The position numbers were made by a program, and so were the translations under genes. DNA of 64,000 bases, from the NCBI RefSeq assembly GCF_900156895.1, contig NZ_FTPD01000056.1, positions 78,379-142,378 on the forward strand, written 5' to 3'. Origin of the DNA: Mesorhizobium prunaredense. GTDB lineage: Bacteria > Pseudomonadota > Alphaproteobacteria > Rhizobiales > Rhizobiaceae. The notes below the pieces were generated by a model. That model saw only the letters and a program-made list of their open reading frames with translations, was not told the DNA's origin and made no database searches. Shown here one piece after another: positions 8,985-31,385 of the stretch; positions within the stretch are counted from its first letter, which is position 1, and every line of letters begins with the position of its first letter.

Positions 8985-9824
8985 CTACCTGTTTAGGATA
9001 GTCTCCATCGTGGCAATCAGCTTCTTCGCCAGTTCTTTCCGGCCCTCCGAATGGTTGTCATAAACGATGTTTCGTATGTGGCGAAGATCGAAAGGGATAT
9101 CGTCAAGCTTTTGCGTGATGAGGATGACCTCTTTGCCAAGCGTGTGGGCAATACCCGCCTCGTAGAAGACGTTAGGATTTCGTCCCGAAAGGTCACATAC
9201 GACGAGTCTTGAGCTGTCAATCAAATTGACGATGTCCTGCATAACGGAATGATTTTCCCATATCTCATCGGCCCGCTGGCAATTCATGCGAAAGCTTTTT
9301 GCAGCTTCCCCTATGGTGTCGTAGACATCGGAAAAGTCTTTGGCGAATGGCATCATCGCCGATACCAAGCGGTCGTTGACGTTCGCGAAGTCAGCTAATT
9401 CGAAAACGTTGGGGCGCGTCCGCCGGGATGCAAACATCCGAAGGACCACGTGGTATAAATCTTCGTCTTTGACGGCCCAGTGAGTGTGATGAAATTCGAA
9501 TTCATCATCAATACCCAGCGCTGACCTTAGTTCGTAGAGGGCAAAGTTTGGCAACGGGCCGATATGGCGGTCCACCGTGAAGTCAAAAATGATTCCTTTT
9601 GGAGTAATCTGGTGACGGGTTATGTGGCCGACGTACGCCAGCTCATCGTGGATGCCTTCCTGCATGAAAAGGCAAGGCAGCTTCACAAGGTCGTCGAGAG
9701 CTAGATTACCATCTGGTTGGAACTGGCTTTTGAGACGGTCGGCGGTGAAGACAAGTGCGCGGCCGTCAATCATATTGGCGCGACCAGCCTTCCAATCCAC
9801 GTTCCGGACGATCAGGTTGAACAT
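8985..9824 (-). CDS. Nucleoside 2-deoxyribosyltransferase-like protein
   Basis: A 279-residue protein starting at 9824 (GGAGGG directly before the ATG). The C-terminal third carries the segment SRLVVCDLSGRNPNVFYEAG followed by IAHTLGKEVILITQ. This is the hallmark of the nucleoside 2-deoxyribosyltransferase / TIR-like Rossmannoid superfamily, where the Glu in YEAG is the usual catalytic residue. The N-terminal 130 residues form a separate domain I do not recognise. Proteins with this fold act in nucleotide salvage or as effectors of phage defence that cut NAD or nucleotides; the island setting favours the second, but this is inference. Confidence 0.75.
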   Translation of the reverse strand: MFNLIVRNVDWKAGRANMIDGRALVFTADRLKSQFQPDGNLALDDLVKLPCLFMQEGIHDELAYVGHITRHQITPKGIIFDFTVDRHIGPLPNFALYELRSALGIDDEFEFHHTHWAVKDEDLYHVVLRMFASRRTRPNVFELADFANVNDRLVSAMMPFAKDFSDVYDTIGEAAKSFRMNCQRADEIWENHSVMQDIVNLIDSSRLVVCDLSGRNPNVFYEAGIAHTLGKEVILITQKLDDIPFDLRHIRNIVYDNHSEGRKELAKKLIATMETILNR

Positions 9825-10426
9825 ATTCCCTCCACACAGCGCTACATTCAATATTTCCGGGCAGGACTTTTGTCACGCGCCTTGGGGACGCTTACGTTTT
9901 AGCCGACACCGCGATCAATGTTCTACAGGGGTTGCGGTGGGCAGCTTTACGCTAGATCAAAATTTGGGGCGAACGGCGCGGTTGAATAACGGCTCACGAC
10001 CCTTCCCTGCCCTTCGTTCAGAGAACTTCTACGACAGGCCCTGACCCGAAGGCGGCCTCTGCAAGCTAAGTGTCAAAGACAGCTTCGCGCCCGATCTTGG
10101 TCACTCGAAGCAATTTCGCTGTTACTCGAAAGCGGACATCGGCAGCGCGAAGCTATTGGTCGTGGTTGCGCCACTTCCGGACTTTTGCCAGTGATGCCGC
10201 GAAGGTCGCGTCTCGTCCCCAAAGCTGACTTACCAATAGCGGGTCCTTGGATCGCTGGGCGCACCTCATGACAGCGCAGCCCTAATGATGCCCGACGACC
10301 GGGCGACGATCTGAGACCCAATCGCGAGTGTTTGTCGTACCAGCCACCATGTCGTAGCCCTAGTCGGTATGCGTTGGTACAGCACAGCGAGGTTGTTACC
10401 CACATCCCGTGCACAATTCAAAGCTG
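9825..10426. other. Non-coding stretch
   Basis: About 600 bp between the transferase-like gene and the end of the CHAT gene. I find no supported gene, repeat or RNA. The part next to 9825 should carry the promoter of the transferase-like gene. Confidence 0.45.
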
Positions 10427-12094
10427 TCACGGGGCGGGCCGGCCGATAACTACAAACGCTGACCAGATCGCAGGGTCCTTCTCCTTGCTCTTAAGCTCAC
10501 GCATAGCAACTGCTAGGGCTATCTCAGCCCCGCCGGTTGAAGGAGCGCCAAGTGCAAATCGCTTGCTCAGTTCAGTTGCAAAGAGTCCCATCAGATCCCG
10601 GGTCCCTGCGTCGCTTACTGCCCACAAACTAACTACAACCTGAGAGGCGCCCGCCCCCAACCAGAAGTCCGATAGCCCAAACACTCCACCAGGAAACACT
10701 TTGCCTAACCCTGAGAAGCAAGCGCTCATAACAACTACGGGATGACGAGAGAACTTCAATTTCATCTTTCTTAAAGCTGCGCCAGTCAAATGATTCCCAT
10801 CAAGCGCTAAAAAGCTCCCGTCTGCCGGATTTATTGGGTCGGTAATTCCATGCGTTGCAAAGTAAATTAAGCGGAGAGTGTTTTGCCCAGCCTTTAGACT
10901 GGATTTAACAAAATTGAAATTGGCGCTAGCTCCTACAGTTGCACCTACGCCCAGCTTGCTCGCCAAAAAACTAGCTTCCTCACGGGCATGCGGCAATTTT
11001 GGCCAGCAAAAGCGTTTCTTGTCATAAGAAAGGTCAGGATCGCCGACAACGAGGAAGCCCGGAAGAGATGCTTTGGACAGCTTTTTAGCAGCCCTCAAAT
11101 TGCTAGGTTTCGCCGCAATAATATCTTCTGCCGCGGGAACGATCATCGGGGCAAACAGATCGACGAGGTTTCGATCCCCAATTGGCAATGCAGCAAACGG
11201 AATTTTCTGCGCGGCTCGTGCCGGTATGATGAGCAACCGTGCATCAGGTACATATTCCTTTTCTAAGGCGGAGGAAATGCTCTCTGGAAGCAGGTAGGAC
11301 TTTGCCTTCGCTAAAGCCGAAAACTCGCCGTCTATTTGGGCTTGAGTCAGCGGTATGTCCGCGCCAGAGGTGTCACCGTCGCAGCCGTCATCACCCTCCC
11401 GCTTGCGCGGTGCTCGAGATGCCGATCGAACCTCCACGCGCAAGGCGTTCCAGATTAATTGAAGAAAATCATCGTCAGTCACGCTGTCCGAAACGGGACT
11501 CCGGGACGCCAACGGCGAATATGCGACGAGCCCATTGGAACTAGCGAGCCATACACACGTATAGGGGCCATCGTCCCAGTTTTCCGAGTAGATCAACGCC
11601 AGAGTCTTATGATGAGCGCTCAAAGCAGACAAACCAGCGTAGAAGTCAGGTAGGTATTTATTCGCAATACGAAGCCGTGCCTCCTTTTCCCTCAGAGCCG
11701 CCTGGTCGGACGGCATAAACACTAAGTCTTCCTTATGCTCCATCATCCACTTGTAAACATCTGACTGGATCAGACTACTTAGAAATAGATCAGGCGTACA
11801 TTTTCCATACTGCTCAAGTTCTTGCCGAAGCGCGTCGTTCTTCGGGCGGCCTTCCTCGTCATCCGAGCTTCCCTCGTCGATGTCCCACCCAGGGTTAGGA
11901 TCATAGCGATCCTTGCGCGGATCGAAATCGTCGTCCGAATTCTTGGCAAGGTATTGGACGTATCGTACAGCTGGCCTAGCACTTGCAGCACGCGTTTGAG
12001 CGGTCGGATCGCTAGCAGCAGTATAGGCTAATGACCAAGTGTAACCAAGGGATAATGAAATCACAAAGCCAATTTCAATAAGAAACCGCATCAT
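10427..12094 (-). CDS. Exported CHAT-domain (caspase-like) cysteine protease
   Basis: A 555-residue protein. The first 25 residues form a signal peptide or anchor (FLIEIGFVISLSLGYTWSLA), so the protein is expected in the periplasm. A low-complexity acidic stretch near residues 50-80 (DDDFDPRKDRYDP, DEGSSDDEEG) follows. The C-terminal 220 residues are a CHAT domain: catalytic His415 in FATHG and Cys459 in MSACFSG are both present. CHAT proteases are caspase relatives, usually cytoplasmic, so export is unusual. The lysozyme-family gene 19 bp upstream is in the same operon and likely a functional partner. Confidence 0.85.
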   Translation of the reverse strand: MMRFLIEIGFVISLSLGYTWSLAYTAASDPTAQTRAASARPAVRYVQYLAKNSDDDFDPRKDRYDPNPGWDIDEGSSDDEEGRPKNDALRQELEQYGKCTPDLFLSSLIQSDVYKWMMEHKEDLVFMPSDQAALREKEARLRIANKYLPDFYAGLSALSAHHKTLALIYSENWDDGPYTCVWLASSNGLVAYSPLASRSPVSDSVTDDDFLQLIWNALRVEVRSASRAPRKREGDDGCDGDTSGADIPLTQAQIDGEFSALAKAKSYLLPESISSALEKEYVPDARLLIIPARAAQKIPFAALPIGDRNLVDLFAPMIVPAAEDIIAAKPSNLRAAKKLSKASLPGFLVVGDPDLSYDKKRFCWPKLPHAREEASFLASKLGVGATVGASANFNFVKSSLKAGQNTLRLIYFATHGITDPINPADGSFLALDGNHLTGAALRKMKLKFSRHPVVVMSACFSGLGKVFPGGVFGLSDFWLGAGASQVVVSLWAVSDAGTRDLMGLFATELSKRFALGAPSTGGAEIALAVAMRELKSKEKDPAIWSAFVVIGRPAP

Positions 12095-14460: not shown

Positions 14461-14708
14461 GCGGGAATTTGCTGACCAGCTCGAAAGGCAAAACTTAATG
14501 CGGTCGCGGTTGCTTCCGACCCATGAGCCGATCGGCTCTTCGCGGCGAGGCCATCCGGACCGCAGCGCGCCTCCAAGTCGACCGTACGGACAATCCGCGC
14601 ATTCATACGCGTTTGAACCGCAACCGCTCAGTCTTCTTTTGCCATGTCGATTTCGGTTGCAAACCTCCGGAAATTTCGAGATTATCGAAACTCTTCGGGG
14701 GCTTGACG

Positions 14709-15785
14709 ATGTTGAAAGTACTTTCAACGGGTTTCTTTTCCGCAATTCTGATCGCTTCAAACTTTTGTACAAGCGATTGCCGCGCCCAGGAAGAAAGTGC
14801 GGCTCCCCTCCCTGAACCAGGCCCTACGACCTGCGCGGAAATTGTTGCTCCTGCCAGTTTTGAGATGGCGTCCGCCGAAATTCGTGGCTTAAACCCTAAT
14901 AATGATGGGATAAAACCTTCTGGGTTTGTCAAGCCATCAATCGATCGGCCGGTAATCCACGGCATTGACATCTCAAAGTATCAGGATGAAGCAGACTTCC
15001 GATCAGTGAAAGATTGCGGCGGGTCATTCGCATACGTACGCCTGTCCGGCGGAACGAATCCAGATAACGAACTACTCTACAGGACGCATTGGGCCAACAC
15101 CCGTGCTTCCGACATGATCCCGGGGCCATATCACAACTTCTCAGTGATCCCCCATTTGCTGAAGAATGTTGCCACGGCCCCAAGTGGGAAGCGCTCAGAG
15201 CTAATTAAAGCGTTGACCCCCGAAGCTATGGGGTCGGCGAAAAAGCAGGCCGCGTTATTCTCTACACGGCTGGCCGAAGTGCTTTCGTTAGACCCCAGTA
15301 ACAACAAGGCCTATCTTCCGATTGCAATCGATCTCTCGGTCCGTCCGCTCGCGGATGATGAAAGTTCACGTCAAGAGATCGGCACCCTATATGGAGCGAT
15401 GGTCTGTGAATTTATTGGCAAAGTCTCTAAAGGGGAGTTCGGAAAATCTCCAATTGTACTTTTTAGTGATCCCGACACTTTTGAGTATTATAGGTTGATA
15501 GAAAAAGCTGATAGTTGCTCACAACAGGATGTGCTTATCTGGATTCGTCACAGAACCTTCGATGGGTCGGCGTTCTACGATCACGATGCTGATGGATTTT
15601 TCAAGGATATATGCAAGATTGGAGAGGAAGGAAAAGATAATCAGGCAGGTCGATGTCTAATTGAGCAATACACCTCTTTTGGCGGGTTCGCATTGTTTAA
15701 GAACGGCTCCCCGCTTGATCTAGATCGTATATTTGCAAGCGAGCAGGAATTCCAAGCACTCTGGCAGGGGAGCGAGAAACCATGA
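14709..15785 (+). CDS. Exported GH25 lysozyme-like protein lacking the catalytic Glu
   Basis: A 358-residue protein starting at 14709, which gives a clean signal peptide (FFSAILIASNFCTSDCRA); the longer frame from 14523 is rejected because it would bury it. The GH25 fold is marked by HGIDISKYQ (Asp87), SFAYVRLSGG and PGPYHNFS. Family enzymes have a D-x-E pair with the Glu as proton donor; here the site reads IAIDLSV (Asp208, Leu, Ser210), so the Glu is gone. It may bind rather than cut peptidoglycan. It overlaps the next GH25 gene by ATGA. Confidence 0.85.
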   Translation: MLKVLSTGFFSAILIASNFCTSDCRAQEESAAPLPEPGPTTCAEIVAPASFEMASAEIRGLNPNNDGIKPSGFVKPSIDRPVIHGIDISKYQDEADFRSVKDCGGSFAYVRLSGGTNPDNELLYRTHWANTRASDMIPGPYHNFSVIPHLLKNVATAPSGKRSELIKALTPEAMGSAKKQAALFSTRLAEVLSLDPSNNKAYLPIAIDLSVRPLADDESSRQEIGTLYGAMVCEFIGKVSKGEFGKSPIVLFSDPDTFEYYRLIEKADSCSQQDVLIWIRHRTFDGSAFYDHDADGFFKDICKIGEEGKDNQAGRCLIEQYTSFGGFALFKNGSPLDLDRIFASEQEFQALWQGSEKP

Positions 15786-16816
15786 ATTGGCGGGCGGCTG
15801 GGCTAGGAGTGTTTCTCGCAGCTATCTGTTCGGCTCCTGTATTTGCCGACTGCTTGCCTCGAAAGATCGGTCCGGGAAATTTTCCCAACACCCCCAAGGT
15901 TTGGGGAACTACGGATAGCGGGCCGATCTTGGATGGCTTCCTCGAACTACGCAATGGAAGTGGGCTTCATAAGATCGAACATGGCGTTGACCTCTCACAC
16001 CACAATGACCGGATACTTTACGGCGAGCTAAAACGGTGTGGTGCGAGTTTTGCGATTCTTAAGATGGATAAGCGTTTCAAGATCCACAAAACAGAACTGG
16101 CCGGCAGGGATATTAGAGTAATTCCCTACCATTATCTGTCCGTTGTTAGCGGTGAAGGAAAAGACTATACGAGGAGACCAAAGGAGTTCTCGCTGCAAGC
16201 GACGTCTGAGGAAAATAGGGGCGCCGGACTCCTCCGCATTGCGGAGAACATGGGGAAAACCAAGGCGGCAAGATTCATATCACAATATGAATCTGCTCTA
16301 TCTCCTACAGAGAGAACATCGGAACTGTCTGGGTTGAAAGGTAAGCTTATCGTTCTCGACGTAGAGGAGTATTTCAAAGTAAGATCGACGTCAAATCAAA
16401 GAATATCGTTTGGCCGATTTTACGCCGCGATGTTGGCTTCTTGGGTTAAGACTGTCAAATCGTCATATCCTGACGCCAAGATTATCTTCTACACATTTCC
16501 CGATATCTACACTAGCTATCTTCAATTTGCATTTCCAAGTGACCATGCGGTTATACACGGAATGCCGGTTTGGCTGGCACGGACCCGCGGTGACGCGAGT
16601 GATTTTGATCTGAAGTCAAGTAAGCAGTTGCAACGTATTTGTCTGTCATCATCAGGTGGAAACAAGTGCATCCTTCACCAGTATACTCACAGAGCTACAT
16701 TTGGTGTACCGAATATTACTGGGCTTTACCCACCTCTGCATATTGATGTGAACCGACTTTTCTCGGCAAAGGAAGTCCAAGATGGAGAGGGCTTCCAATA
16801 TGTTCGAGCGGAATAG
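15782..16816 (+). CDS. Exported GH25 lysozyme-like protein with intact active site
   Basis: A 344-residue protein, translationally coupled to the previous gene (ATGA overlap). It has a signal peptide ending near SAPVFADC. GH25 features are HGVDLSHHND (Asp70) and LIVLDVEEYF, where Asp193 and Glu195 form the D-x-E catalytic pair missing from its neighbour. It probably hydrolyses peptidoglycan in the periplasm or outside the cell. The two proteins are diverged paralogues and may work as an active/inactive pair. Confidence 0.87.
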   Translation: MNWRAAGLGVFLAAICSAPVFADCLPRKIGPGNFPNTPKVWGTTDSGPILDGFLELRNGSGLHKIEHGVDLSHHNDRILYGELKRCGASFAILKMDKRFKIHKTELAGRDIRVIPYHYLSVVSGEGKDYTRRPKEFSLQATSEENRGAGLLRIAENMGKTKAARFISQYESALSPTERTSELSGLKGKLIVLDVEEYFKVRSTSNQRISFGRFYAAMLASWVKTVKSSYPDAKIIFYTFPDIYTSYLQFAFPSDHAVIHGMPVWLARTRGDASDFDLKSSKQLQRICLSSSGGNKCILHQYTHRATFGVPNITGLYPPLHIDVNRLFSAKEVQDGEGFQYVRAE

Positions 16817-18429: not shown

Positions 18430-18493
18430 TCTGTGGTATACATCTACGATGCGTCAAGAATGGTCCCTCATGTGCTTGGAGTGGAGGTGGCTT

Positions 18494-19801
18494 ATGAAAA
18501 GACAGGTCCTACTTGTGTTGGGTCTGCTTCTCTTTCCTGCCAGTTCGCGCGCTTCCGAGGAACACATCGAGTTAAACTACGGCTCCACGTATATCAATAT
18601 CTTTGGACCCGGGGGATTTTCCTCCCCTCCGGTGCATGAAACGGTGTTTGGGAGGCAGGGCCTTGTGGCCCGGCTGCTTAGTAGAACTGTTGACCTCTCT
18701 CAGCGAGAGGCGGACACCCCCGAAAGCATCGATGCAACTTTGCTGGTCTCGGAAAGTGAAGATGATCTGGTTCTCATCCAAATCATCTTCGCTCCCGGCC
18801 ATCCAAGACAGGACGAGTTCGTCACACTCGAAGGGAGTGGGGATTCGACGATCAATGGCGTTTGCAGAGTCTTGTTTGCTACCGAGTGCAATGACACACG
18901 TGTTCTCAACGGAATGCAGTTCGCGGTTCCAACGGAGCAGCAACTGTCGGCTGAGGCGCCGCAGGCAGTAAGCGCGCTAGGCCAGCCCAATGTTAATTTC
19001 GGATCGCCAGGGGAGATATCGGAGACGTCGTTCTACATCGTGGGGGCCCCTGAACACGTGAAGTTGCCGCCTCTGCCCGTTGCCGCAGATGAACTCCGTG
19101 CTGCTCCGTTGTCGGATATCATCGAGGGCGTGCCCGTCGGATCTGAGCCAGAGACAGATGCACAGCCGAGCCAGCCAGATGAAGAGGGCGCGGCGCCACC
19201 CACAGCGGTTGGCACGCCGTGGTTCGTAGTTCATTGCACTGCGTTCCAGGCGAGCGACGAACAAATTGCCAAGGCTGTCAGGAACCTTAGGAGCTCTGGC
19301 AAAAGAAACAAAGGCTATGTCTGGGTGAATTCGAAGGGTGAACTCTTGGAGGTGGTGGAACTTTCGGATAGGCGGGAACTTGCAACCAGAACAGAATCAA
19401 CGCCGTACTGTCCACTACTTGCGACTAAGGCTCGGCCGCTATTTATTAATGTGGAGATGCATTACTTTTGCTCCGAGAGGAACTCTGTTGCGGCAACTGA
19501 TGCGCAGTACAAAGGGGTTATTGAATTTTATAAGAAGGCCAAGCAGATATATGGCGCTATGAATGTTACCTCACATAGGCATGTTGATCGCGGTATCGCC
19601 GGGGCCCATACTGATCCGCCTGCACACACATTTTCGTTCGACAGGTTGCGAGAACAGTTTGAGGCCGCGGGTATAGGGACAAACGATGTATTCTTTCTCT
19701 CTAGTGCGCAGCAGCAGAAGGCTGCCAAGGCGGAGCACAAACACTTTTTTCCCCCAGACGTTGCGGTGAGTCTCCAGCGGGGAACCGACGATTGCCAATA
19801 A
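18494..19801 (+). CDS. Exported N-acetylmuramoyl-L-alanine amidase-like protein
   Basis: A 435-residue protein; the ATG at 18494 has GGAGG upstream and gives a signal peptide (VLLVLGLLLFPASSRAS). Residues 25-195 form an N-terminal domain I do not recognise, followed by an acidic Pro-rich linker (SEPETDAQPSQPDEEGAAPP). The C-terminal 190 residues resemble zinc amidases of the Amidase_2 family: presumed zinc ligands His247 (FVVHCTAF), His361 (SHRHVD) and Asp374 (AHTDPP). It would cleave the bond between muramic acid and the stem peptide. First gene of an operon with two protease-like genes. Confidence 0.8.
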   Translation: MKRQVLLVLGLLLFPASSRASEEHIELNYGSTYINIFGPGGFSSPPVHETVFGRQGLVARLLSRTVDLSQREADTPESIDATLLVSESEDDLVLIQIIFAPGHPRQDEFVTLEGSGDSTINGVCRVLFATECNDTRVLNGMQFAVPTEQQLSAEAPQAVSALGQPNVNFGSPGEISETSFYIVGAPEHVKLPPLPVAADELRAAPLSDIIEGVPVGSEPETDAQPSQPDEEGAAPPTAVGTPWFVVHCTAFQASDEQIAKAVRNLRSSGKRNKGYVWVNSKGELLEVVELSDRRELATRTESTPYCPLLATKARPLFINVEMHYFCSERNSVAATDAQYKGVIEFYKKAKQIYGAMNVTSHRHVDRGIAGAHTDPPAHTFSFDRLREQFEAAGIGTNDVFFLSSAQQQKAAKAEHKHFFPPDVAVSLQRGTDDCQ

Positions 19802-19847: not shown

Positions 19848-20639
19848 ATGTCACTTAAATATATCGCCTTTTCAGTTTTGTTTTTAGCGGGGGTGTCGGC
19901 TGGGCTGGCCCAGGAGATAGAGTTAGAGACCCTGGAAAGTCTACCGTCACCCGATGTACAGGATCAGGTGATCGGTGGTGAGAAGATGGATCCCGCCAAA
20001 TGGCCCGCCACCCTTGTCTTCCGAAACAGAGGAGGAGGCGGTTGCACCGCTACCGCCATTGGCGATCGCGTCATAATCACTGCCGCTCATTGCGTCGATA
20101 ACGGTGGCACCGGCGCTGCTCGTGTAAAGGGGCAGTCTATTCGCCTTGCCTGTTACCACCACCCTCACTATCGACCACCACAAAGCTATTCAGCAGACTT
20201 CGCGCTTTGCTTAACCGAGGGGCAGATGCCGGTGTTACCGTTTGAAGTCCTGAACGTTGACCCCTCGGTTCCGAAGCTCGATGCTGTGGTACAGCTGCTT
20301 GGCTATGGCTGCCTGACGATAGGCGGAGTAGATAAGACGTTTGGCCACCTTTACGGTGGAACAGCAAAGGTGGTGAAGATGCCAGGACCCGGTCTCTACA
20401 CTGTAACAGAGGGAGGCGCAGCAGTGTGCTTCGGAGATAGTGGAGGCGGGAGTTACGTCGGTGATGATGTGAGTAGGCTGCTGTTTGCAGTGAATTCGCG
20501 AGGTAACATAAAAAACCGGTCCTTCCTTTCGACGATCAGTTCCCCGATATTTTTGGCTTGGGCTGAAGACTGGGCGGTGAACAATGAAGTAGAAATCTGC
20601 GGACTTACGCAAAATTCTGCTGGGTGCTCAGAGCAATGA
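19848..20639 (+). CDS. Exported trypsin-like serine protease (S1 family)
   Basis: A 263-residue protein with a ribosome site GGAGGAG and a signal peptide (FSVLFLAGVSAGLAQ). The sequence VIGGEKMDPAKWPA resembles the trypsin mature N-terminus, implying activation by cleavage before the Val/Ile. The triad is complete: His81 (ITAAHCVD), Asp117 (SADFALC), Ser198 (CFGDSGGG). Several Cys pairs suit a disulphide-bonded periplasmic enzyme. It lies 46 bp after the amidase and 22 bp before the pseudotrypsin-subtilisin fusion. Confidence 0.92.
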   Translation: MSLKYIAFSVLFLAGVSAGLAQEIELETLESLPSPDVQDQVIGGEKMDPAKWPATLVFRNRGGGGCTATAIGDRVIITAAHCVDNGGTGAARVKGQSIRLACYHHPHYRPPQSYSADFALCLTEGQMPVLPFEVLNVDPSVPKLDAVVQLLGYGCLTIGGVDKTFGHLYGGTAKVVKMPGPGLYTVTEGGAAVCFGDSGGGSYVGDDVSRLLFAVNSRGNIKNRSFLSTISSPIFLAWAEDWAVNNEVEICGLTQNSAGCSEQ

Positions 20640-20661: not shown

Positions 20662-23421
20662 ATGCTCAACGTGCGCATCCTCTTGAGAGTGCTGGTAGCT
20701 GTCAGCTTAGTATTCGTCACACGCCCCGCTACAGCGATTATAAATGGCGGACGAGTACCCGCTGAGAAAGAGGATGCATTTGCGGCAGTTATCTTCCGCG
20801 GGGCGCAGGGGGCATGCAGTGCCACTGCCGTGGGGCCTCGCGTCCTCCTCACCGCCGCGTTTTGCATAGGCGCCACAGATCGACCCGGCTATGTAGGGAT
20901 CGGCCCGCGGCAGTACGCGATAGAGAGATGCGTACTGCATCCTGATTACGGCTCAAGGCGCGAAGCCGACTTTGCCCTGTGTTTCACGAGGGCAGACCTG
21001 CCCTTGTCGGATTTCCCCCGTGTGGACACGGCGCCTGGTACATTGTCGCTGGGCCTTACAGTCCAGATAACTGGCTTCGGATGCCAGGCAGCCGGAGGGT
21101 ACGATTCCAGCTATGGCATCTTCGGGGTGGGCAGGGCTACAATCAGTTCATTGCCCGACGAAGGGGGCGCTGGCCAAGCTCAGTTGACAGGTGATGCGCT
21201 GTGTTTTGGAGACGGAGGGGGCGGCGTCTTCCTCGCGGGGGACGCGGGACCTAAGCGCCTAGTTGGGGTCAATTCCCAGTCTGATTTACAAGAACGCTCC
21301 TACATTTCCCTCACTTCATCTAGGTCGTTTGTGCAATGGGCGCGTGGCCTATCTATTCGTCACGAAAGCCCAATCTGTGGTGTGTCTGAGGGCGCTGAAG
21401 GATGTAAAGCCGTTGCAGGATCCGCGATCTTAGACGTTATCACACCCGAACCAGACACCTTCTCTGATGTGATGACGCAAGTCGGGACCTACAAGATCCC
21501 TGACGATGGGATCGTCGAAGGCTCCGTTCTAAAAGTTAGCGCCAATCCTGAAGAAACTTTGCGAGAGCTAGTTGATCGTGTTTGTGGGCCAGAGCCGGAA
21601 AGATATTTTGAGGCTTTATCCGAATCTACCGGTATCCCTGATCCGTCTTTCGACGAACCAATGGTCGGCGGAGAAGAAATCGCCATTCCCCTTTGTTCCC
21701 TTGACACGGTTTGGTATGAAACGACGCTCGTTCGGAGCGGTGATACCCTTTGGAGCATATTCAAGTCGCAACCTGATGTCCTTTTGGGCGGATTACCTCG
21801 CTGGCAGTTTTTCGAAGTTCCCCCAGGGTCGGTAGAAGGGGATGCCGTCAACAGTGGAGTATTCGTTGAGGCATTCAAGGCACTTAATCCAGGAAAGAAT
21901 CCCACAGCTCTTGCTATAGGGGATCGCATTTTAGTCCCACTTGCTCCTGCTAGTGGCACGGTTCATTTGGCACAGAAACTAGCCCCTCAATTCGGCATTA
22001 CACCGCAATTGTCGCTCACCGATTTCGAGTTGCAGTCCGAAGACGCCGATTGTGTTAGACCCGCCTCTTACGAAAACTATCCATATTCAGTCCAAGGCTT
22101 ACTGGATGCATTGCAGGTGAATCGGATAGTCATGGATGAGGGGCGTGCAAAGCGCATTCAAACTCGTGTTATCATCGCCGACAGCGGCCTCTACCAAGTT
22201 GGAAAGAGCATCTTCAGCTGGGCGGTAGTACCCTACCCCAGAGATGGCAACGAGCGGAAGTTCGCTAATCGCGTTCAACCCGTTTATTGGCCAGACGAAA
22301 AGATGAGTCATGGCACCCAAGTAGCATCTCTGGTCCTTGGAGGTCCGACATTTGGTCGCTTTCAGGCGCTCATGAAGAGTTCGCCGGTCATGGTTGTGCC
22401 AGTTCGCATTTATGATGTTAAAGAGAGTGAATTTATCAATCCTCAGACAAACGAAAGAAAGTCCGGATTGCAGCGTATTGTCCAGCAGAATGCATTTGAC
22501 ACGGTGCTGAAGGCTGCAAAGGATCTTGACGCTCGGATTGTGAACTTGAGTATCAAGACTGCGTCTACCATCCCGGAGATGGAACAAGATGGGTTCGGAG
22601 AGCAATCTGATATCCTGTTCGTGGTTGCCGCAGGGAATGGAGATGGAAAGATTGGGCGGGAGACCACAGTAACCTACCCGGCCGTTTATGGAGATCACTT
22701 AAACGTCCTTGCGGTGGCGGCATTAGACGGAGAGGGCGACGTCCCGGTTTTCTCGAATTGGAACAGTGAGTTCGTGCATATCGCAGCTCCCGGGTGCAGC
22801 GTTCCGGTATTGTCGTTCGAACCGGCAACAACAAGGTTTTTTGAGGGAAGATGGCATGGGACATCGCTATCAGCACCCCTAGTGTCGTTTGCCGCTGCAT
22901 TGGTTGACTCAGAGGCTGGTGGAAACCTCCGGCCCTGGCAGATAAAGGAGCGTTTGGTCGTAGCTTCGGATTTGGACGAGAAGCGCGCGGATCGGGTGTT
23001 AGACGGGCGCGCTTTGGACATTCCCAAAGCTTCAGCGATTTGGGTTGATGCGGTGGAAACGACTAAGGCGCCCGGCCTGATCTTCGGGGCCGCGACAATT
23101 ATCAAATCGGGAGCTCCATTGAAGATGGAAAGTGTACTTAGATTTGATTGCGGTGAAGCGGGAGATCTGGCCATTCGCGTTCATCAACTCCGCAAGCTCA
23201 CTCCGAGGTTCAGAAATGTTAACGGAAAGACATTTGGCAAGATTTACTACCAGAAGGTTGCCACTGGCCGCCTCGAGGGTGCTGCGTGCATGGTGCCGGA
23301 CAACCTCAGCGTCCAATTCAACGATCTTCTGGGCGGATCCAGTCTGACGCTGAGCATGACCGAAATTGCGGACATCGTTCCGCGGATGCTACCCCGTTAT
23401 GAGCCTGATCAGCCAAACTAA
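20662..23421 (+). CDS. Pseudotrypsin-LysM-subtilisin fusion protein, exported
   Basis: A 919-residue protein with a signal peptide (LRVLVAVSLVFVTRPATA). Residues 25-250 are a trypsin fold closely similar to the preceding gene, but the catalytic His is Phe67 (LTAAFCIG) and the catalytic Ser is Gly185 (CFGDGGGG); only Asp103 remains. Around residues 350-435 lies a LysM-like peptidoglycan-binding region (LVRSGDTLWSIF ... IGDRILVPLAP). Residues 500-800 are a subtilisin (S8) domain with intact Asp507 (IIADSG), His550 (MSHGTQVAS), oxyanion Asn (VVAAGNGDG) and Ser735 (HGTSLSAP). The last 120 residues are unassigned. So a dead trypsin domain guides or regulates a live subtilisin held at the cell wall. 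Confidence 0.88.
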   Translation: MLNVRILLRVLVAVSLVFVTRPATAIINGGRVPAEKEDAFAAVIFRGAQGACSATAVGPRVLLTAAFCIGATDRPGYVGIGPRQYAIERCVLHPDYGSRREADFALCFTRADLPLSDFPRVDTAPGTLSLGLTVQITGFGCQAAGGYDSSYGIFGVGRATISSLPDEGGAGQAQLTGDALCFGDGGGGVFLAGDAGPKRLVGVNSQSDLQERSYISLTSSRSFVQWARGLSIRHESPICGVSEGAEGCKAVAGSAILDVITPEPDTFSDVMTQVGTYKIPDDGIVEGSVLKVSANPEETLRELVDRVCGPEPERYFEALSESTGIPDPSFDEPMVGGEEIAIPLCSLDTVWYETTLVRSGDTLWSIFKSQPDVLLGGLPRWQFFEVPPGSVEGDAVNSGVFVEAFKALNPGKNPTALAIGDRILVPLAPASGTVHLAQKLAPQFGITPQLSLTDFELQSEDADCVRPASYENYPYSVQGLLDALQVNRIVMDEGRAKRIQTRVIIADSGLYQVGKSIFSWAVVPYPRDGNERKFANRVQPVYWPDEKMSHGTQVASLVLGGPTFGRFQALMKSSPVMVVPVRIYDVKESEFINPQTNERKSGLQRIVQQNAFDTVLKAAKDLDARIVNLSIKTASTIPEMEQDGFGEQSDILFVVAAGNGDGKIGRETTVTYPAVYGDHLNVLAVAALDGEGDVPVFSNWNSEFVHIAAPGCSVPVLSFEPATTRFFEGRWHGTSLSAPLVSFAAALVDSEAGGNLRPWQIKERLVVASDLDEKRADRVLDGRALDIPKASAIWVDAVETTKAPGLIFGAATIIKSGAPLKMESVLRFDCGEAGDLAIRVHQLRKLTPRFRNVNGKTFGKIYYQKVATGRLEGAACMVPDNLSVQFNDLLGGSSLTLSMTEIADIVPRMLPRYEPDQPN

Positions 23422-27260: not shown

Positions 27261-30200
27261 ATGAGAGCCCTCGTTTTTAGTGCCACTTTAGTATTCGTTG
27301 CCACCTTGGAATTCCTGTCTTCGAGCGCTGGCGCTGACCACCAAGTGAAGCAGCAAGAGATCGACAGTCGGCCGTCGTGGGTGGAGGCGGCGGTGGCAGG
27401 CTCATATGTTCCGGATGAAAGATACGACGGGACTGCAGGAAAAGCGGCTTCTTCAACAGCAGTCACGATTGCTCCAAGTTTTGGCACCGCCCCCCCCATG
27501 TTGCTTTCGCTGGTGGACAAGTTAGACGGCGGGCAGGGTCTTGAATTGCTTAACAAGGGAATAGCAGAGGAAGAACACAACCTGCATAGGAAAGCAGAAC
27601 AAACATTCGCCGCTGCTATTGAGCAGGTTAGAAATGCACCCAATTTGGATGTCAATCTGTTGGCAGAGTTATTGACCAGGAGAGCTGTTGCACTGGTAAA
27701 TCTAGATGAGGACGCCAAGTCTTCGAAACTAATTAGGGAGGCGCTTCAGATAAGTGAAAAGCAAAAATTAAGGGATAAGGCAGCACGGTATACGATATTA
27801 GGCCTAATTGCCAAAGTGTCGGCTCGGTCTGGACAGCTCTCCTCTGCGGAACAATACTACAGAGATGCGCTAATTGAGATAGAGCTAGCAGATGGCAAAG
27901 CAAGCATCTCCTATGGGATAGGTCTCTCAAATATCGCTTTTGTTGTGAAGGAGCTCGGGCGTTACCCAGACGCGGAAAATCTCTTTATTGAGTCGATGGA
28001 TATATTGCGACCAATAGGTGACGAGGCGAAGTCACATTACGCGAATTCTCTCGGTGGTCTCGGTGAAGTTTACTTGTCCCAACATCGGCAAGTCAATGCG
28101 GAGCAGGCTATCCTCGGTTCAAGTAAGTTAGTCTCTGCAATTTTCGGCGAAACTAGCAAAGAGGCGGCCAATGCAAAACATGTTGTAGGAGAGATGTACC
28201 TAACATTTGGAGAGTCGAAGAAGGCTATTCCTTACATGGAGGAAGCTCTCAAGATCAAGGAGAAGCTCTATGACCCGGATGGCACGGCTGTCGCTCTAGC
28301 CCTTCATCAACTTGCGTCGGCTTACCAACAAGCAAAGCGTTATCAAGATGCTGAAAGACTCTATCTAGCGGCCCTGGATATACGGGAACGAAAGTTGGGC
28401 CCTGAGCACCTTTATACAGCTTCGACAGTCGAGAATCTCGGGGGCCTGTACGATGACCTGGACCAGCCTGGCAAGGCTATTCAGTCCCTCAATCGTGCAT
28501 TGAGTATAAAAAGGCATTTGCTAGGAGAAGATCATCCTAACGTCGCGCTCACATTTCGACACATTGGCGACTTTCATTTTGTTCGAGGCCAATACAAGGA
28601 AGCACATCAGGCGTTCGCAAGTGCAAACAAAATTACCATCGACCAGATCACCGGTTCCTGGCTGTCTCCGGATTCGGTGTCGTCGTCATCTGAAGCTGCT
28701 CAGCAATGGAGCCAAGGGGCCGGGTTCGTGCATGAAATTCAAGCCGCTTACGAGATCGGACGTGCTGATCCAAGCAAACTCTCGCAAATGTTCGCCGAAT
28801 CGTTCGTAAATTCGCAGTGGGCTGAGATTTCGCAGGCTTCCGCCACCCTCAGTCTCATGGCTGGAAGAGATGCAGTGGTAGAAGAGGGTGCGAAACGCGA
28901 AGTCCGCCGTCTTCAGGACTTGGAAGTGCAACTGAGAAGGCTGCGACTGGAAGCTATTGAAAGCCACGTATCTCTCGACGTAGCGGTTGATCAGGAGCAG
29001 CAAAGGGGTCGACTCATGGCCGAAGAGGCTTTGGTTGACCAAATTCGCGTAGCGAGGACGCGTGTTCGAGATGCAATGCCGAAGTATTTCGAGTACATTA
29101 GCCCGTCGCCGCTGACAGTCGAACGCGTTCAGAAGCAGCTGTTAGCCGAAGATGAAGCTCTGATAGCTTTCGTGGTAACTCCGCTCTATCGCGAAGGATT
29201 AAACGATCAAGTGTTTATGTTGGCATTGACTAAAGACAACTTTGCTTTTGTGAAGTCTAATATGCGAGGAATGACGGTACGCGCCATTGTGGAGTCGCTG
29301 AGATGTGGGCTCGACGACACATACTGGGATCAACCTCGTATTCTCGGCTCCAGTTGCGCGGAACTGGTAAATCGCGCTCGTCCGGAAGGTGATCAACCTC
29401 TTCCCTTCAGATTCGACTACAGTCACTTACTATATGCCAATCTAATCGCCCCCCTTGGTGATATAATAACAGGTAAGCGGCTTCTCATTGTGCCATCTGG
29501 TCCGCTTCAAAAGCTTCCGTTTCATGTACTCGTGACACAGGATGCGGGAGGTGAAACTGCAGATAAATACGAAGGATACAAAGGAATACATTGGCTTGGC
29601 CTCGACTACACAATCAGCATTCTTCCTTCCATAAATAGCTTAGGGCGGCTCCGAGTACGGCAATCACCCGCTCGAGGAATGCGCCCCTTCATAGGGTTTG
29701 GTGATCCGGCCCTGGCCAACTGCGATGACAACGAGCAACAGATTGAATGCCCGGCGCCCGCGCCAAAGACTATGGGGAGGCAGTCATTGACAGAGCCGAA
29801 GGCGCCCCATCGAACCAAGCGCAATCTACCATACAAATTGGAAGCGGCGGGCCAAACTTCATGGGATCGGGACGCGATTCGAACGACTGTACGATCTATG
29901 TGCCGATTGCCCGAGACGGCCACCGAGCTGCGCTGTATCGCAAAAAGCTTAAATGTAACCGAAGACACCTTGTTTCTGGCCGACCGAATGAGTAAAGCAG
30001 CTCTGCTACGGCTCGACAGCGATGGTGAACTGGATAACTATCGGATAGTGCATTTTGCGACACACGGTTTAATTGCCAGTGATTTGCCTATGGGAGACCG
30101 CGTCGCTGAGCCTTCGTTGATCTTCACCCCCCCAGTTGATGGAGACCTTTCCTCCGATGACGGACTACTTCGAGCTTCGGAGGTAGCCAAGCTTCATCTT

Positions 30201-30515
30201 AGCGCTGATGCTGTTGTGTTGTCCGCGTGCAATACCGCGTCTACATCTGAACAAGGGAAGGAGGCCTTGTCGGGTTTATCTCAGGCCTTCTTCTATGCTG
30301 GCGCCAGGTCGATAATAGTGTCCCATTGGGCCGTAGACACAGAGGCAGCGGTCACATTAGCAACTAGCGCACTGACGAATGGAGATTTAGCCGAAGGACT
30401 CCGTGAAGGCATGAAAGCGCTAATGGAGGATACGTCCCGCCCCGACTACGCTCACCCGTCTGTGTGGGCACCCTTTATTTTCGTAGGTGCGACTGAGGCA
30501 CTTCGCTCAAGATAG
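27261..30515 (+). CDS. Exported TPR-CHAT caspase-like protease
   Basis: A 1084-residue protein with a signal peptide (FSATLVFVATLEFLSSSAGA). Residues 90-470 contain a series of tetratricopeptide repeats (for example YPDAENLFIESMDILRPIG, YQDAERLYLAALDIRERKLG), a peptide- or partner-binding superhelix. A helical linker follows, then the C-terminal CHAT protease (about residues 730-1084) with His935 (VHFATHG) and Cys990 (VLSACNTA) both intact. TPR-CHAT proteins are usually cytoplasmic effectors, as with Csx29 of type III-E CRISPR systems; no CRISPR gene is near, and the signal peptide points to the periplasm. It converges with a lysozyme-like gene and overlaps its end by 9 bp. Confidence 0.88.
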   Translation: MRALVFSATLVFVATLEFLSSSAGADHQVKQQEIDSRPSWVEAAVAGSYVPDERYDGTAGKAASSTAVTIAPSFGTAPPMLLSLVDKLDGGQGLELLNKGIAEEEHNLHRKAEQTFAAAIEQVRNAPNLDVNLLAELLTRRAVALVNLDEDAKSSKLIREALQISEKQKLRDKAARYTILGLIAKVSARSGQLSSAEQYYRDALIEIELADGKASISYGIGLSNIAFVVKELGRYPDAENLFIESMDILRPIGDEAKSHYANSLGGLGEVYLSQHRQVNAEQAILGSSKLVSAIFGETSKEAANAKHVVGEMYLTFGESKKAIPYMEEALKIKEKLYDPDGTAVALALHQLASAYQQAKRYQDAERLYLAALDIRERKLGPEHLYTASTVENLGGLYDDLDQPGKAIQSLNRALSIKRHLLGEDHPNVALTFRHIGDFHFVRGQYKEAHQAFASANKITIDQITGSWLSPDSVSSSSEAAQQWSQGAGFVHEIQAAYEIGRADPSKLSQMFAESFVNSQWAEISQASATLSLMAGRDAVVEEGAKREVRRLQDLEVQLRRLRLEAIESHVSLDVAVDQEQQRGRLMAEEALVDQIRVARTRVRDAMPKYFEYISPSPLTVERVQKQLLAEDEALIAFVVTPLYREGLNDQVFMLALTKDNFAFVKSNMRGMTVRAIVESLRCGLDDTYWDQPRILGSSCAELVNRARPEGDQPLPFRFDYSHLLYANLIAPLGDIITGKRLLIVPSGPLQKLPFHVLVTQDAGGETADKYEGYKGIHWLGLDYTISILPSINSLGRLRVRQSPARGMRPFIGFGDPALANCDDNEQQIECPAPAPKTMGRQSLTEPKAPHRTKRNLPYKLEAAGQTSWDRDAIRTTVRSMCRLPETATELRCIAKSLNVTEDTLFLADRMSKAALLRLDSDGELDNYRIVHFATHGLIASDLPMGDRVAEPSLIFTPPVDGDLSSDDGLLRASEVAKLHLSADAVVLSACNTASTSEQGKEALSGLSQAFFYAGARSIIVSHWAVDTEAAVTLATSALTNGDLAEGLREGMKALMEDTSRPDYAHPSVWAPFIFVGATEALRSR

Positions 30516-31385
30516 GCCTTTTTCGAAGATTGCCGCCTCCAACTCTCTGCGCGTGAGTAGCCCTTTTGCGTCGGGATCATCTTTCCATATCCGTTTCATC
30601 TCACGTATCTTTTCCGGAACGGATGCGAAGTCCGATTTCAACATCAACTCCTTGATTTCGCGGATCTCCCGGCGTCTATCAATTGGATCCCCTTTTGCTG
30701 ACTTTGACGAACTGCCACGGTTGTACACCAAGGATACGAGCGCTCCAAAGCAGTCAGGTGAGAGTTGGTCCGCGTTAGGAAAATACGCAATCACTTCGCC
30801 GGCATAGAATCGAAGTCCATAAACAAACTGATCATATGCCGGGTCCCATGGCACGTCGATATTCAAATACTGTTTTAGGATTGCGGCGGCAGCACTCCCC
30901 CGCTTCCCACAAGCGGTCCTAAGCTGATCAATTGAAGCCCGATCGATGAAAGGACTCCAATCAGCCTCGAAGTCTTTTTCACTTGAATAGCCAATATCGT
31001 AACCGATTCCAAATGTTATGCCGGACTTGCCCTTCGGCCATATCGGATTCCTATACTTCTTTTCGTAACGAGTCTTGCCAGTTACCTCGAACAGAACAAT
31101 AAGGTCTTGCGACCTCTTTGACATTTGCTTATCGGATTGCCACCGCCTCGGCAGGGAGGGCTTGCGCTTACGCTGTTTTGATGATGGACCGATTTGCCTG
31201 TATTCCGTTTCGGTGAAGGCTCTGGCACCTTCGAGCTCCCCTTCGTTGTTAGCGAGCCGGGCAAACGTATCATCAATTGAACTGTCAGGCACAGTTGCTA
31301 CAGCTCTCTTGGTCAGGGCCGCAAGCGAAACAAAAGAAAAGAGAATGCCCCGCGTCATCAACAAACACGTACTACGGCGATTCAT
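30507..31385 (-). CDS. Exported GH24/pesticin-like lysozyme
   Basis: A 292-residue protein with a signal peptide (LFSFVSLAALTKRAVA). The lysozyme-like region spans about residues 94-285: catalytic Glu100 (LIVLFEVTG), then SGITFGIGYDIGY with Thr124 and Asp130, which matches the Glu/Asp/Thr layout of pesticin-type lysozymes, and LVSLVYNRG near residue 215 with a terminal TRRELEAAIF. It should cut glycan strands. The gene is convergent with the TPR-CHAT gene; their 3' ends overlap by 9 bp. Confidence 0.78.
   Translation of the reverse strand: MNRRSTCLLMTRGILFSFVSLAALTKRAVATVPDSSIDDTFARLANNEGELEGARAFTETEYRQIGPSSKQRKRKPSLPRRWQSDKQMSKRSQDLIVLFEVTGKTRYEKKYRNPIWPKGKSGITFGIGYDIGYSSEKDFEADWSPFIDRASIDQLRTACGKRGSAAAAILKQYLNIDVPWDPAYDQFVYGLRFYAGEVIAYFPNADQLSPDCFGALVSLVYNRGSSSKSAKGDPIDRRREIREIKELMLKSDFASVPEKIREMKRIWKDDPDAKGLLTRRELEAAIFEKGLS

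Follow-up and report, generated by a model that had tools for sequence, protein, structure and literature searches.

A single gene of Mesorhizobium prunaredense encodes a protein, P0001, in which a trypsin-like domain that has lost two of its three catalytic residues is joined through a LysM-like linker to an apparently intact subtilisin. The data show or strongly imply that P0001 arose by fusion and carries an export signal at its N-terminus, and that it descends from a conserved, tightly spaced pair in which a secreted trypsin is followed by a LysM-like subtilisin. The gene was analysed within a stretch of 64,000 nucleotides (the window). Its parts are as follows.

20662..23421, + strand: fused gene for P0001, pseudo-trypsin, LysM-like linker and subtilisin (ATG start, 919 aa; translation of the open reading frame)
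20662..20736, + strand: putative N-terminal signal peptide, residues 1–25 (hydrophobic core and sequence, by eye)
20737..21426, + strand: pseudo-trypsin (S1) domain, about residues 26–255 (Pfam, alignment, AF2)
21427..22011, + strand: linker with two LysM-like beta-alpha-alpha-beta units, about residues 288–342 and 351–428 (sub-threshold Pfam match, AF2, Foldseek)
22012..23046, + strand: subtilisin (S8) catalytic domain with D507, H550, N659 and S735 (Pfam, alignment, structure comparison)
23047..23418, + strand: C-terminal all-beta domain with invariant C830 and C876, without a Pfam match (S8-family alignment, AF2)

P0001 has Pfam matches to Trypsin (residues 28–212) and Peptidase_S8 (542–773), a sub-threshold match to LysM (357–426), and nothing else. 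By eye, the likely cleavage site of the signal peptide lies between ATA and IINGG, so that a trypsin-type N-terminus would come straight after it. The AF2 model of the protein has a pTM of 0.53, with low pLDDT between the domains and around residues 509–552, and at this pTM no S1-S8 interface is readable from it. In the alignment used for folding (A5), some S8-only residues sit under the trypsin part.

The trypsin-like half scores 42.6 bits against the Pfam Trypsin family (PF00089, cut-off 20.6). In the alignment with free trypsins, F67 (codon TTT) takes the place of the catalytic His and G185 (codon GGA) that of the Ser, and the catalytic Asp is retained as D103. Because the triad reads F67/D103/G185, the domain is, judged by its sequence, a pseudo-member of family S1 and a predicted non-peptidase. 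All eight cysteines of the family are retained (8/8). These observations agree with the initial annotation, which described one open reading frame (20662–23421) with His67 replaced by Phe, Ser185 by Gly, and the Asp and Cys pattern kept. Averaged in blocks of ten, pLDDT is mostly 68–93 across residues 41–250. A phmmer search of solved structures with the pseudo-trypsin half alone returned a single weak match (E 0.0056).

The subtilisin half matches Peptidase_S8 (PF00082) with 87.3 bits (cut-off 21.8). The complete Asp-His-Ser triad reported earlier (D507, H550, S735) was recovered together with N659, and all four residues occupy columns that are invariant across 14 aligned members of the S8 family; a pattern check found the Asp, His, Asn and Ser motifs in 20 of 20 S8 sequences. 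The fold superimposes on PvSub1 (8cp0) with Z 28.5 over 284 residues at 2.8 Å, a comparison that spans mainly residues 469–912 and barely covers the S1 and LysM parts. The segments around 509–552 are poorly predicted by AF2. On this sequence evidence, the subtilisin of P0001 is apparently catalytically active.

The nature of the linker is less clear-cut. Its score against Pfam LysM (PF01476) is 18.5 bits, below the cut-off of 20.9, and a LysM match at E≤1 occurs in three of 14 S8 family members, P0001 among them. In the AF2 model, residues 256–470 form two beta-alpha-alpha-beta units at low confidence (mean pLDDT 54). A Foldseek search with this model has LysM proteins as its top matches (MltD and a Thermus thermophilus NlpC/P60 protein; best E 0.013), with none of 52 matches at E≤0.001. 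The case for the LysM-like region is thus weaker than in the initial annotation, its LysM-like folds falling short of the cut-offs, and the wall tethering proposed there depends on these folds; the linker is a probable wall-binding region. Six cysteines are invariant in the S8-family alignment (308, 345, 464, 712, 830 and 876 in P0001 numbering). The last two belong to the C-terminal all-beta domain (23047–23418), which is conserved among the S8 relatives and has block pLDDT values mostly between 78 and 92.

As a separate question, we considered identity with the anti-phage subtilase IetS. This was ruled out by the scores (24.1 bits against an NCBIfam cut-off of 900; 30.6 bits for the PADLOC IetS model), and the apparent signal peptide also contradicts such a defence role.

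Relatives were collected by searching P0001 at E≤1e-10 against sets of 121 relatives, 397 genomes of the order, 385 of the class and 394 of the family, and at E≤1e-8 against 146 genus genomes; these sets share members, and the larger groups were represented by samples. The fused form is present in two of the 146 genus genomes, that of the window and one other (G033), whose fused protein is about 27–31% identical to P0001. In tblastn searches for further fused forms, none of 23 plasmid records covers 80% of P0001, phages gave no match, and none of 12 plasmid records covers 80% of the G033 protein. A pattern scan of genome contigs with P0001 found no relative; the 14-row alignment A1 had no stretch sufficiently conserved for such a scan, and the 4-row alignment A2 led to four loci, of which that of Ensifer sp. 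MPMI2T (L045) was new.

Ten genomes or records encode the same domains as a split pair, trypsin first and S8 second: G030, G297, G364, G501, G511, G885, G1108, G1252, Rhizobium rhizogenes pColt5.8a and Ensifer sp. MPMI2T. In all ten, the S8 start lies near the trypsin stop, with an overlap or a gap of at most 20 bp (the exact start codon being uncertain). A tight pair of trypsin and LysM-like S8 is the usual arrangement in Hyphomicrobiales and other Alphaproteobacteria among the relatives found. None of the four family libraries searched lists LysM-like S8 proteins with a partner protease under a name of their own.

Other S8 relatives stand beside a different protease. The neighbor is a V8-like protease in Sinorhizobium americanum, S. 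medicae ml18, Shinella sp. PSBB067 and G632, and an M12A-type protease in S. meliloti R28 and 1132, S. medicae SU277 and G005 (Pfam Astacin was run on one of these). Altogether, a second protease domain (S1, V8-like S1 or M12A) is fused or adjacent in 20 of 21 S8 loci, several of which are near-identical relatives of one another; at the remaining locus, a second S8 copy in G030 (L020), no partner protease was recognised by eye among the neighboring frames. Three of the four V8-like S1 proteases beside an S8 (L016, L026, L027, L055) look intact by motif. The exception, on pSymA of S. medicae ml18 (L026 9959–10798), seems to be frameshifted ahead of its catalytic Ser, which the S. americanum copy is not. 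At L027 and L055, a very long frame (2412 and 2406 aa), multicopper-oxidase-type by eye, adjoins the V8-like/S8 pair.

In Mesorhizobium sp. WSM3860 (G501), genes for LuxR, LuxI, an endolysin/chitinase-like protein, the trypsin and the S8 lie on one strand (L034 5841–11295), overlapping or at most 25 bp apart. In G511, the trypsin is preceded at a distance of about 2.8 kb by a luxR gene. Since luxR/luxI and lytic genes occur near split pairs, the gene order suggests that some members of the LysM-like S8 family may have a density-controlled secreted lytic function. The gene downstream of the fused gene in G033 (L018:7000–8694) has no significant BLAST similarity to a family of 551–641-aa neighbors found at L019, L035 and L045.

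The catalytic state of the trypsin follows the gene arrangement. Free trypsins of the P0001 S1 family beside an S8, including the one encoded upstream of P0001 (P0002), retain His, Asp and Ser in 11 of 11 cases. Both fused domains are dead by sequence: the triad positions read F/D/G in P0001 and Q/G/A in G033, where H is replaced by Q, D by G and S by A and the IVGG-type N-terminus is lost as well. By simple arithmetic that ignores kinship, the chance of two dead among two fused and none among 11 free is 1 in 78. Left out of the 11 were L024 and L025 (G137, G359), whose trypsins have intact His and Ser motifs by eye and no S8 relative among their frames, the V8-like S1 proteases of L016, L026, L027 and L055, which belong to a different S1 branch, and L012 (G313), which was listed only. 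A further, large alignment (A3) was not used, as it seemed to mix trypsins with S8 rows.

Loss of the active site has not been accompanied by loss of the disulphide scaffold. Like P0001, the fused domain of G033 retains 8 of 8 family cysteines and matches Pfam Trypsin above the cut-off; the free trypsin of G1252 has lost one family cysteine. The free trypsins share 31 invariant columns, 24 of which are retained in P0001 and 19 in G033. In a leave-one-out comparison, each free trypsin misses at most three columns invariant in the others; because the fused domains have lost seven and 12, they seem to evolve under a constraint that is weaker or of another kind. The initial annotation supposed that homologues with an intact triad would reduce the case to a mutation in a single strain: such homologues exist, all of them unfused, and the other fused protein is dead too. 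The Phe and Gly replacements themselves are not conserved, the residues being Q/G/A in G033 and intact in the free trypsins. Since different residues replace the catalytic ones in the two fused copies, their sequences indicate that the dead trypsin of P0001 is not one strain's mutation.

The step from pair to fusion can be small, because in G501 the trypsin and S8 genes are in the same frame, separated by one stop codon and 12 bases. All ten split S8 proteins have a hydrophobic N-terminal segment (peak hydrophobicity 1.86–2.67), whereas the linkers of the two fused proteins peak at 1.77 and 1.72, a small margin below the weakest split S8. This suggests that the fused S8 may have lost its own signal peptide, in which case it would depend on that of the trypsin part. 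On the question of one fusion or two, trees constrained to group the fused rows pass the AU test for both halves (S1: lnL 3.23 lower, p-AU 0.257; S8: lnL 0.37 higher, p-AU 0.577), branches being long. In the S1 tree nine of 10 inner branches are open, and in the S8 tree six of 17; long branches are found for both fused trypsin domains and likewise for the free trypsin of L017.

The surroundings of P0001 in the window include the following genes.

14523..15785 and 15782..16816, + strand: two overlapping GH25-lysozyme-like genes (the second below the Pfam cut-off)
18449..19801, + strand: protein of 450 aa, hydrophobic at its N-terminus, encoded immediately before the P0002 gene (amidase-like by eye)
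19848..20639, + strand: separate trypsin P0002 with intact H81, D117 and S198 (Pfam, alignment)

The P0002 and P0001 genes adjoin with a gap of 22 bp. P0002 is the intact, similar trypsin that had been noted in front of P0001, its domain being 34% identical to the pseudo-trypsin. The 450-aa protein has no match in any family library searched. In the GH25-like pair, the first protein has D-L-S where the second retains D-V-E, which we take to be the GH25 catalytic motif, and by sequence the two may be a second active/inactive pair of the island. A gene on the minus strand (30507–31385) has sub-cut-off matches to Pesticin and Phage_lysozyme. With two GH25-like genes and one pesticin/lysozyme-like gene, the island of P0001 looks to carry wall-lytic functions. 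Two further genes (10427–12094 on the minus strand and 27261–30515 on the plus strand) each encode a CHAT-domain protein whose N-terminus is hydrophobic; the protein from 27261–30515 also has TPR repeats. For the product of 8985–9851 (minus strand), the C-terminal part is similar to a TIR-type effector in PADLOC (E 1.4e-8) and shows a weak resemblance to a nucleoside deoxyribosyltransferase.

The explanation that we favor, with roughly even confidence, is that the operon pair became fused and the trypsin part turned into a non-catalytic N-terminal module of the subtilisin, which it supports. Having lost the catalytic His and Ser and kept the disulphide scaffold and most invariant residues, the dead domain would serve export and folding and would hold, cover or position the subtilisin. 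Because the domains are fused and the genes so tightly paired, physical contact between trypsin and S8 seems probable; the dead domain on S8 would correspond physically to such a contact between the split partners. The LysM-like units would retain the enzyme on peptidoglycan, where the subtilisin may process wall or co-secreted proteins, plausibly peptidoglycan hydrolases encoded nearby (genes for such hydrolases are close by both in the window and in G501). In the window strain, the activating cleavage would still be made by the separate intact trypsin P0002. The support of S8, the wall location and the hydrolase processing are inferred, and the fused proteins known number two. An open frame is no proof that the S1 domain is maintained, because the signal peptide precedes it, and the seven invariant residues lost from P0001, together with its long branch, fit relaxed constraint and count against a working module.

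These same losses could mean that the domain is a passive relic, its trypsin activity having become dispensable after the fusion and the domain being retained for its export signal and the open frame while slowly decaying. We consider this a serious but lesser possibility. It is favored by the long branches of both fused domains, by the seven and 12 of 31 invariant residues that are gone, and by the G033 copy, which is also without the IVGG-type N-terminus and the Asp. It is harder to reconcile with the eight cysteines retained in both copies despite about 27–31% identity, with the fairly well predicted trypsin-like half and with Pfam Trypsin matches above the cut-off in both proteins.

A more elaborate scheme, which we regard as rather speculative, would make the dead trypsin a regulatory subunit within the protein itself, holding the wall-bound subtilisin inactive until it receives a cue, either the cut of the adjacent trypsin or a bound ligand, whereupon the subtilisin would activate co-secreted peptidoglycan hydrolases. 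This would be a wall-lysis cascade like that of CspBA and SleC, independently evolved in rhizobia from another protease fold and lying, in one relative, beside quorum-sensing genes.

According to the initial annotation, the pseudo-trypsin would instead bind or inhibit the active trypsin encoded just upstream. The adjoining genes and the 34% identity of the two domains fit this proposal, and there is a precedent in MamO, a pseudoprotease needed for the proteolysis of its partner MamE, though no physical contact between them was detected (PMC4794232). However, G033, which carries the fused dead domain, lacks any free trypsin of the P0001 S1 family at E≤0.001. For this reason a role on the fused S8 is favored over docking. 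Moreover, the ten split-pair genomes or records have one free trypsin each and no clear second copy, G297 and G1252 adding a second short, weak match. What stands of the earlier claim is thus the retention of a dead trypsin on an apparently intact subtilisin; docking to or inhibition of the active trypsin as its general role appears unlikely.

It is more doubtful still that the dead fold acts as a sensor in the manner of CspA or CspC, binding a signal and freeing the subtilisin to activate co-secreted wall hydrolases. A subtilisin with a dead protease fold near peptidoglycan hydrolases does recall CspBA-SleC as presented in the available passages of PMC5241399, and the split pair of G501 sits within the luxR-luxI-endolysin run. 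The absence of spores speaks against it, as does the finding that the three luxI matches of the window genome all lie on other contigs, none on that of the window. That P0001 is an assembly or sequencing artefact is scarcely credible: fused forms are rare, but at least two base changes separate TTT from any His codon and GGA from any Ser codon, and the same architecture recurs in a distant second species (G033).

The interest of P0001 lies mainly in the coexistence of split and fused states in related bacteria. They form a natural before-and-after series, an intact free trypsin beside S8 and a dead trypsin fused to S8, in which the role of a dead protease domain for its fused active partner is directly testable by comparison. 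The architecture had been put forward as undescribed. Our literature search, within the text available to it, found no report of an S1-LysM-S8 fusion or of such rhizobial protease pairs, and nothing resembling the P0001 locus in work on quorum sensing with proteases. The pairing and fusion of active and inactive proteases do have precedents in the passages seen.

One precedent is found in clostridia. In Clostridium perfringens, the Csp proteases are separate and active, and in Clostridioides difficile CspB, which activates the peptidoglycan hydrolase SleC, is fused to a CspA whose catalytic site is lost, according to the available passages (PMC5241399, PMC6464247). Both there and here, as far as these passages go, a subtilisin is fused to a dead protease domain and a relative encodes the partners as separate active proteases (PMC5241399, PMC6464247). 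The dead domain of CspBA, however, belongs to the subtilisin-like Csp family and follows CspB, whereas that of P0001 has a trypsin fold and is N-terminal. P0001 adds the apparent export signal and the LysM-like units. Its host is presumably a Gram-negative non-spore-former, unlike C. difficile. Because its dead domain is S1, P0001 is not a member of the CspBA family and, by analogy, may at most work like CspBA.

Insect clip-domain serine protease homologues have S1 domains whose catalytic Ser is replaced, and they assist active proteases as cofactors; they differ from P0001 in being eukaryotic and in having other accessory domains. A parallel in an alphaproteobacterium is MamO of Magnetospirillum, a dead trypsin fold needed for MamE-dependent proteolysis and thus a trypsin-fold pseudoprotease paired with an active trypsin fold; in the same passages, pseudoproteases arose independently in three magnetotactic taxa (PMC4794232). 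P0001 and P0002 likewise combine a dead trypsin fold with an active one encoded alongside, and G033 lacks a free trypsin of this family. MamO differs in being HtrA-like, in having a C-terminal transporter domain and in binding metal, and a subtilisin fusion is not described in the passages available (PMC4794232). A survey of prokaryotes lists two inactive homologues among 247 trypsin-like proteins from 91 genomes and, in its accessible text, does not mention LysM (PMC2605481). The split pairs offer a further comparison, with the same domains in the same order in nearly contiguous genes; they differ in that the trypsin is separate and its triad intact in 10 of 10 pairs. Compared with these systems, the fusion of an active protease with a pseudoprotease appears to be already known in kind, and what seems new in P0001 is an S1 pseudo-domain on a LysM-like S8.
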